This document shows positions 22,928 through 24,505 of a DNA stretch of 64,000 nucleotides, one piece after another; within the stretch, counting starts at the first letter, position 1; each line of letters begins with the position of its first letter. Position numbers and translations under genes: made by a program. Where the stretch lies: NCBI GenBank assembly GCA_900320515.1, contig ONSJ01000005.1, positions 1-64,000 on the forward strand. Reading direction: 5' to 3'. Source of the DNA: an uncultured Methanobrevibacter sp. Its GTDB lineage: Archaea; Methanobacteriota; Methanobacteria; Methanobacteriales; Methanobacteriaceae. The notes beneath the pieces are model-generated. The model ran no database searches and was not told the DNA's origin. It saw only the letters and a program-made list of their open reading frames with translations.

Positions 22928-23118
22928 TTATCTAATCCCCTTATCTATTTTAAACATGATATAATTATGTTGCTCATATATTATAATAGTTATTTTTTAA
23001 CACTGTTATTCAATATGAAAATATGATTTAAACTTAAAAATATAATGAATCAGTATCAGAAAATAGAAAAAAATAATAATTTTATTGGAAAATAATTCCC
23101 AACAAAACCATTTATAGA

Positions 23119-23325
23119 TTAAAGTTTTTGAACTTCCTGAATAGGCAAGCCAGTGCGTTTGGCGATTTCAACATCGGGAAGGATATCTTTCAAGTTTTTT
23201 GCAATTTTTCTAGTTACATTATCAGTGACTGTTTTAGTGACTTGCTCAGTAACTTGCTCAGTAACTCTCTTAGTATTCTTATCAATCAAATCCTTTTCAT
23301 ATCTGGCTAAAAAATCATTAATCAT
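23119..23325 (-). CDS. Stand-alone copy of the Rpn-type nuclease C-terminal tail (possible antitoxin)
   Basis: 68 residues starting MINDFLARYEKDLIDKNTK and nearly identical to the last ~75 residues of the upstream 23352-24239 protein, with fewer VTxx repeat units. It has its own ribosome site, AAAGGAG, 8 bases before ATG 23325, and lies 26 bases after that gene's stop. Coiled-coil-like VTEQVTKTV repeats occupy the middle, followed by LPDVEIAKRTGLPIQEVQKL, an HTH-like end. In E. coli Rpn systems a short protein made from inside the gene inhibits the full-length nuclease; here the short form may be a separate gene. Confidence 0.65.
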   Translation of the reverse strand: MINDFLARYEKDLIDKNTKRVTEQVTEQVTKTVTDNVTRKIAKNLKDILPDVEIAKRTGLPIQEVQKL

Positions 23326-23351
23326 CTGATTAACTCCTTTAACATTAAAAC

Positions 23352-24239
23352 TTATAGTTTTTGAACTTCCTTGATAGGTAATCCTGTGCGTTTGGCGATT
23401 TCCACATCTGGAAGAATATCTTTCAAGTTTTTTGCAATTTTTCTAGTTACATTATCAGTGACTGTTTTAGTTACTGTTTTAGTGACTTGCTCAGTGACTG
23501 TTTTAGTGACATGCTCAGTAACTCTCTTAGTATTCTTATCAATCAAATCCTTTTCATATCTGGCTAAAAAATCATTGTTCATATGTATAATCTCCCAAAA
23601 CTCATTTAACAATTCATCATCATCTTCGGCAATAATCTGTGCTACAATATATTGACATTTTTTAATTTCCTCTTGTTGGTCTTCAGTGAATAGCATTTTA
23701 TTATTGGCTATTTTAAAGACTTCAAATGCGACTTTAACCGTATCAACATTTCCCATCAATGGAATGAACACCAAATTATACCTGTCCATCAATGTCAGTT
23801 TCTCATGATTATCAATTTTGTTTTTAACATTTATTAATCTTTCGGATCCGTCCAATTCTGAATAGAAAAATAATTTTGGCCTAAAGCGGAAAAATCTTGA
23901 GATGAATGCAATTGTTTTAGATTTAACTCTCAATCCAGTTGAAAATATGTTTGTTTCAACACATTTGCCACTAATGACCCTCAAATTAATCGCATATTGG
24001 GCACATCTCAATAGAAATTTCTCCGTTAGATTTCCACTTTGGAACTCTATATTCAATAATGTCCCATCATCAAGCTCCAATACACCATCCATGAAACGTT
24101 TTCTGAATGTCGGAATTATCAATTCGGTCGGATAGAACCCAACAACCTGCCTTGTATCGCCCATCACAGCCAATATCGCCTGTGCAAAAGCGATGAGAGA
24201 CAGCTTTTGCAACGTATCTTTCTCAAAAGGCACATACAT
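23352..24239 (-). CDS. Rpn/PD-(D/E)XK family nuclease (transposase-like)
   Basis: 295 residues from ATG 24239, chosen because GGTGAT lies 5 bases upstream. The nuclease domain shows the PD-(D/E)XK pattern around FMDGVLELDDGTLLNIEFQSGN (Asp, then Glu-x-Gln). After it comes a helical region and a repetitive heptad-like section (VTKTVTEQVTKTVTKTVTDNV) encoded by ~12-base repeats, then a C-terminal HTH-like end. Members act in recombination or anti-phage defence. An internal methionine (MNNDFLARYEKDL) matches the start of the downstream tail-only gene. Confidence 0.7.
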   Translation of the reverse strand: MYVPFEKDTLQKLSLIAFAQAILAVMGDTRQVVGFYPTELIIPTFRKRFMDGVLELDDGTLLNIEFQSGNLTEKFLLRCAQYAINLRVISGKCVETNIFSTGLRVKSKTIAFISRFFRFRPKLFFYSELDGSERLINVKNKIDNHEKLTLMDRYNLVFIPLMGNVDTVKVAFEVFKIANNKMLFTEDQQEEIKKCQYIVAQIIAEDDDELLNEFWEIIHMNNDFLARYEKDLIDKNTKRVTEHVTKTVTEQVTKTVTKTVTDNVTRKIAKNLKDILPDVEIAKRTGLPIKEVQKL

Positions 24240-24505
24240 TTTTATCACCATGTTTATTTAATCATGGCATGTCGACATACACAAGAGTATATTAGATTTA
24301 AACAATATATAAATCAAGCAGTTATAAATTAAAGCAATTTAACGAAGTTAATTAAATATTAAAGCATTTTAACAATTTTCACTATGAGACATTTTTTGAA
24401 ATCTTCAATGATTTTCAAGACAAAACAAAAAAAATTCAAGGTTAAATCAACATTGATTTTTCATATGAGTTAGCTATTTAAAACATAAAATAAAGAGTTA
24501 AAAGC

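Follow-up and report, generated by a model that had tools for sequence, protein, structure and literature searches.

A 64,000-nucleotide stretch from an uncultured Methanobrevibacter sp. (hereafter the window; contig C37 of a 2.1-Mb genome that is 84.6% complete) carries two minus-strand genes that we read, with about even confidence, as an archaeal Rpn-type module in which a matched intragenic antitoxin would be joined by a second tail partner of another length specificity. The first gene, L (23352..24251), encodes an Rpn-type PD-(D/E)XK nuclease-like protein, and the second, S (23119..23325), follows after 26 nt and encodes a tail-only, RpnS-like protein of 68 residues. Both genes, both ribosome sites, the purifying selection, and the recurrence in related genomes are read from sequence, and the fold of S is taken from a structure model.

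The open reading frame of L comprises 299 residues from 24251. The start is probably the ATG at 24239 (Met5), giving 295 residues, because most close relatives begin there. A putative catalytic stretch, D55...E69 with F-Q after E69, is encoded at 24045..24089 (minus strand); D55 and E69 are invariant in two alignments (16/16 and 9/9 aligned proteins), and these columns together with the model match described later suggest a catalytic role. The C-terminal tail of L from an internal ATG (Met224; 23352..23582, minus strand) corresponds to a predicted intragenic S of 76 residues, which contains seven VTxx units encoded by 12-nt repeats (VTEH VTKT VTEQ VTKT VTKT VTDN VTRK; 23439..23522, minus strand).

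S aligns with residues 224–299 of L, and its ATG coincides with the internal ATG at 23582, as expected from the original prediction, which described S as a repeat of the L tail starting at an internal Met. The same prediction gave S a ribosome site of its own and fewer VTxx units, and both are present: AAAGGAG (23334..23340, minus strand; dG -6.6) sits in the 26-nt gap past the L stop, 8 nt 5' of the S ATG, and the VTxx arrays, which begin at residue 21, have seven units in the L tail versus five in S (VTEQ VTEQ VTKT VTDN VTRK; 23206..23265, minus strand). A search of the window's own genome matched the S region to L with E = 7.6e-31, the S–L tail similarity lies at z = 44 relative to shuffles, and identity over the last 36 residues is 97%. 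The synonymous change between the two is 0.30 and the amino-acid change 0.03 (dN/dS 0.08), with nine synonymous versus two amino-acid-changing differences in the 61 codons outside the repeats; pooled over 22 pairs from loci among the matches listed, dN/dS is 0.33. Judged by these codon changes, the L–S pair is under purifying selection, and S appears to be a genuine gene maintained by selection. The z of 44 and the dN/dS of 0.08 exclude the idea that S is a random open reading frame.

Because the gap between them is only 26 nt, L and S are probably carried on one transcript. Upstream of L, TTTATATA (24306..24313, minus strand) was read by eye as a putative TATA-box-like element, from its likeness to the archaeal consensus. 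A T-rich run 3' of S (23056..23075, minus strand), also read by eye, is a possible transcript end; archaeal transcription terminates at oligo-T. A perfect 10-nt palindrome, ATGTCGACAT, at 24269-24278, past the TATA-like box and ahead of the start of L, could be an operator, and its occurrence is within chance expectation over 64 kb.

The neighbors of the L–S unit, which by their protein sequences are probably metG and the gene for the primase large subunit, are 1578 nt apart in the window with the unit in between, and 158 to 1112 nt apart in 27/29 relatives; in the other two, metG was absent from the fetched flank. None of the loci of 13 named relatives (0/13) has metG and the primase gene beside L. 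Because the metG–primase spacing is short in relatives and L lies elsewhere in the named ones, L–S is an insertion of the window's lineage, in agreement with reports that rpn genes move horizontally (PMC10327210). Comparison with the nearest relative, G039, did not reveal a clean insertion boundary.

L is Rpn-like in that the fold and the architecture are present, and it falls short of the curated TIGR01784 model. L had no Rpn match in Pfam or NCBIfam up to E = 1, and no PADLOC model identifies it as an Rpn protein, which rules out naming L after a curated family of these collections. Half of the aligned relatives (8/16) matched TIGR01784 at E <= 0.01, the best among the matches listed scoring 40.2 bits against an NCBIfam cut-off of 52.1. 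Matches in PHROGs were weak, confined to the tail, and labeled 'plasmid stability'. With hhalign, the L profile matched E. coli RpnE/RpnC with a probability of 90 and E = 1.6e-6, only the tail being aligned, and against PDB sequences it matched only RpnA-S (7th0; E = 0.31). A CAP-repeat protein, the best row of the tail profile (1.6e-8), was rejected since no stretch of it passes alone, and the match was taken to reflect repeat composition.

AlphaFold models of L and S had mean pLDDT values of 74.5 and 86.3, respectively. Foldseek gave no match at E <= 0.001 for either model, and the structural reading relies on VIA re-examination, which was confined to Foldseek's rows. The L model aligned with EndoMS/NucS over 101 residues (Z 8.2, rmsd 3.1), and Card1, MspJI, and R.BspD6I scored lower; ATP synthase gamma chains, the top Foldseek rows for L, were discarded with an rmsd above 15. 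Hence, L has a modeled PD-(D/E)XK nuclease domain with a middling Z, and nuclease activity is predicted. In the S model, a helix of 44 residues precedes two short ones. RpnA-S (7th0) was the top of 477 chains compared with it (Z 5.8, rmsd 1.7, 45/46 residues) and had the highest probability among the matches listed by Foldseek, yet with E = 1.0. An RpnS-type three-helix C-terminal tail is thus modeled for S, and variable four-residue repeats near its start are a further Rpn feature. The PD-(D/E)XK model match, the RpnA-S-like fold of S, and the tail alignment to RpnE/RpnC all support the assignment to the Rpn type from which the original prediction had started.

A separate Shine-Dalgarno-like site, GGGAG (23592..23596, minus strand; dG -7.0), precedes the internal ATG of L, which looks like a live start; neither point was part of the original prediction. 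Pairing with the anti-Shine-Dalgarno sequence was scored 5' of every internal ATG of the L genes, a site being defined as dG <= -5. ATGs located 55–85 residues from the C-terminus (tail ATGs) had such a site in 66/91 cases versus 50/289 for those at under 40 or at 110 residues and more (Fisher 4.6e-22; loci among the matches listed), and in 52/57 genes the tail ATG had the stronger site. The anti-Shine-Dalgarno sequence itself was seen at the 16S 3' end in 5/66 genomes of the genus. Upon synonymous recoding, the mean dG changed from -6.67 to -4.57 at tail ATGs and from -2.66 to -2.29 elsewhere, and only 26% of the tail-ATG sites individually reached P 0.05 against recoding. Since recoding leaves part of the tail-ATG signal, part of it is carried by the amino acids. 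The residues that encode the site vary by clade (EVV, LGD, EEI, GGL), a pattern that favors selection for the ribosome site itself. The internal start for S that belongs to the Rpn design is thus present in L as a sequence signal.

According to the original prediction, a tandem duplication had turned this inner start into an independent gene. The independence of S stands, but the handing over does not, since the inner start is kept in the window and, with a site of dG <= -5, in 19/21 pairs; the S start has such a site in only 13/21. The best S start and the best internal start share an alignment column in 17/21 pairs. Internal-site strength did not differ significantly between L genes with and without a separate S (p = 0.19), and general replacement of the internal start by S is ruled out by this value and by the 19 pairs that keep the site. 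Because L keeps an internal start with its site, the separate gene adds to the intragenic start instead of replacing it. The pair that looks most like a hand-over from an internal start to a separate gene is one in the window's own genome (L080; G000:C35:83142-85470), where the tail Met of L is gone and the S site is strong (dG -10.5).

Rpn-like L genes are present in 61/66 genomes of the genus at E <= 1e-10, and the named relatives that carry L are all Methanobrevibacter assemblies (13/13), the window's genome being Methanobrevibacter-like. We examined 81 loci, namely the window and 80 taken in E-value order among the matches listed; the 80 were picked by eye, and cases with internal stops, short frames, or contig ends in the gene were excluded. 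Downstream sequence was usable at 73/81 loci and unusable at 8/81. Relatives were to be compared for the duplication under the original prediction, and a tail-like open reading frame was indeed found downstream of L at 27/73 loci (among the matches listed), compared with 0/73 for the antisense strand at the same threshold. These 27 loci refute the idea that S is unique to the window's species.

The 27 tail-like open reading frames gave 21 pairs for the length count after exclusion of six: L082 for its weakness, L093 because it lies far downstream and is more than a tail, L115 as a longer copy, L127 and L153 as partial, and L143 as remote. In the pool for dN/dS, five of these six were omitted and L143 was kept, giving the 22 pairs. 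In 18/21 pairs, including that of the window, the best match of S was its own L, although pairs of one clade are not independent; this bears out the predicted duplication of the 3' end. In two different species (loci L081 and L083), the S genes are 0.97 alike versus 0.72 and 0.75 to their own L, and being nearer to each other than to L, these S genes are older than the species split.

Several loci deserve mention in their own right. In the window's genome, a second Rpn-like L (L004/L015; G000 contig C53, 12997-14200) is broken close to its tail, by an in-frame TAG plus a frameshift, and has an intact tail-only S behind it. At L034 (G013:C55), one L is followed by two successive tail-only open reading frames (+91 and +353), each with a shorter variable stretch, and at L008 (G000:C31) the tail pair is built of seven-residue units (EKDTILA), not four, the downstream copy having two units more. 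At L085, L103, L107, L110, L128, L134, and others, L is cut off by the end of the contig within or close to its tail; duplicated tails are expected to break short-read assemblies, and if so, S genes are undercounted.

The patchy distribution raises the idea that tandem duplication and recombination at an unstable repeat have left S as a transient by-product of little functional consequence. S is absent downstream of L at 46/73 loci (among the matches listed), and among the four closest relatives with a downstream stretch it is absent in G054, G059, and G035 and present in G056. E. coli strains 146 and CDC#03-98 also lack S, and their L ends in a C-terminus of the S type, which would fit a fusion of the two genes. 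Moreover, the rpnE downstream gene is flagged by RefSeq as incomplete or a pseudogene in all fetched strains with S (10/10; L184-L193); since this gene has an ATG and AAGGAG, the flag is likely an annotation artefact. We consider a by-product quite unlikely, given dN/dS values of 0.08 at a synonymous divergence of 0.30 in the window and of 0.33 in the pool, a ribosome site of S's own, an old S common to two species, and an intact S behind a broken L in the window's genome.

The same repeats could make S mainly a DNA donor, whose recombination with the L tail would change the unit number of L and let it escape inhibitors, from phage or otherwise, that sense how long the tail is. Unit numbers vary widely, and of the 61 codons compared in the window pair, one differs among the first 20 and ten among the last 41 (including two end units), as if stretches had been exchanged; the apparent L/S fusions in E. 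coli would fit as well. A donor would need neither a ribosome site nor an intact reading frame, we know of no phage factor of this kind, and we regard this explanation as highly improbable.

Tail length is where the separate gene and its neighbor part. Among the 21 archaeal pairs (from the matches listed), the S tail is shorter in 14, longer in four, and equal in three, and the difference is a multiple of four residues in 17/18 unequal pairs. E. coli tails were unequal in 11/11 rpnE and 8/8 rpnC pairs. The rpnE sample comprised 12 of 60 listed rows (10 with S, two without), with MG1655 as the eleventh pair, and the rpnC sample eight of 60; rows were chosen non-randomly, for differing match lengths or extra features, and several share a haplotype. 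By a hand estimate for E. coli, tails paired at random would also seldom be equal in a set of 11, so the mismatch need not be selected. These data speak against equal length being required to keep the separate gene.

The mismatch bears on the simplest role for S, that of a plain second antitoxin of the window's L, as the original prediction implied; S would then bind the L tail although it is two units shorter, and would raise the dose of inhibitor over nuclease. S lies on the same strand 26 nt behind L, shares the modeled RpnA-S fold, is 97% identical to the L tail over the last 36 residues, and belongs to a pair that appears to be under purifying selection; the accessible text of PMC10327210 also reports that the downstream rpnES product is made in E. 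coli. According to the same source, RpnC inhibition is abolished by a single extra repeat, whichever way the two lengths differ (PMC10327210). The RpnC rule asks for equal repeat numbers, and with five versus seven units in the window pair, S does not qualify under it as a matched antitoxin for the window's L. Unequal lengths in 18/21, 11/11, and 8/8 pairs would not be allowed if a matched antitoxin were required, and since separate tails seldom match their neighbor, the idea of a neighbor's antitoxin becomes doubtful under the RpnC rule. That rule rests on one bacterial protein and may not apply to VTxx helices, and we consider a plain antitoxin possible, if somewhat unlikely.

Given the mismatch, S most likely serves as a second partner, one specific for another tail length. 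In the module that we favor, L would be a PD-(D/E)XK nuclease, and its tail a helical dimerization and regulation domain. The conserved start within L would yield a matched 76-residue product to hold L in an inactive state, the role of RpnS in E. coli, and this intragenic product would be the true antitoxin. Duplication of the 3' end would have put a second tail-only gene behind L on the same message, to be translated from its own ribosome site and retained by selection. With a long helix two units shorter than that of L, S would pair poorly with the window's L by the RpnC rule and would instead be an RpnS-type partner for its own dimers or for tails of its own length. We infer the toxicity of L, translation, the shared message, and the binding target of S, the toxicity and its inhibition by the short product by analogy with E. 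coli.

More generally, separate tail genes of bacteria and archaea may be kept purposely length-mismatched, as regulators of another length class (for example, as decoys that sequester the intragenic antitoxin or tails of foreign origin, or as immunity factors against other alleles) and not as the neighbor's antidotes, on top of a conserved internal-start antitoxin that operates in archaea too; we offer this only tentatively and think it rather unlikely in its full breadth. The gene-within-gene antitoxin design would extend to archaeal methanogens, in which the internal start stands out statistically. Separate tail genes seldom equal the repeat number of their neighbor, and either the one-unit rule of RpnC lacks generality or these small genes, widespread as they are, serve a purpose other than neutralizing the adjacent nuclease.

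The arrangement with a separate tail gene is itself known from E. coli rpnE and rpnC. The accessible text of Zhong et al. describes RpnS proteins made from internal starts in E. coli that inhibit RpnL directly, Rpn tails whose four-residue repeats vary in number, the separate copies rpnCS and rpnES, which lie downstream, arose independently, and are lost via deletion or fusion, and rpn genes in two archaeal phyla (PMC10327210). In that accessible text, we found no remark on native separate copies differing from their neighbors in repeat number, and searches on RpnS/RpnL, the archaeal Rpn family, and Methanobrevibacter recombination-promoting nuclease found nothing nearer.

Compared with known structures, the L core resembles EndoMS/NucS and other PD-(D/E)XK endonucleases (2vld, 5gkj, 5gke, Card1, MspJI) over about 100 residues (Z 8.2 to 5); these endonucleases lack the Rpn tail, and their identity to L is low (9–12%) with a middling Z. 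RpnA-S (7th0) shares the tail fold of S, but has only 22% identity, 46 residues, and no VTxx array. The closest parallels are E. coli rpnE-rpnES (ypaA) and rpnC-rpnCS, which likewise combine an L nuclease, variable four-residue tail repeats, an internal start, a downstream tail gene, and unequal tails. The rpnE tail gene lies 12 nt behind with AAGGAG before it, and that of rpnC about 70 nt behind; as in rpnE-rpnES, the window's tail gene is directly downstream and derived from its own L (identity 0.97 in the last 36 residues). The E. coli genes differ in being bacterial and in having repeats of the EGxx, RQEV, or FQKG types instead of VTxx, and the nuclease parts of RpnE and RpnC are too distant to be matched by sequence to the archaeal alignment. 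The module in the window would thus be an archaeal example of a published arrangement, with a testable conflict over the length rule.
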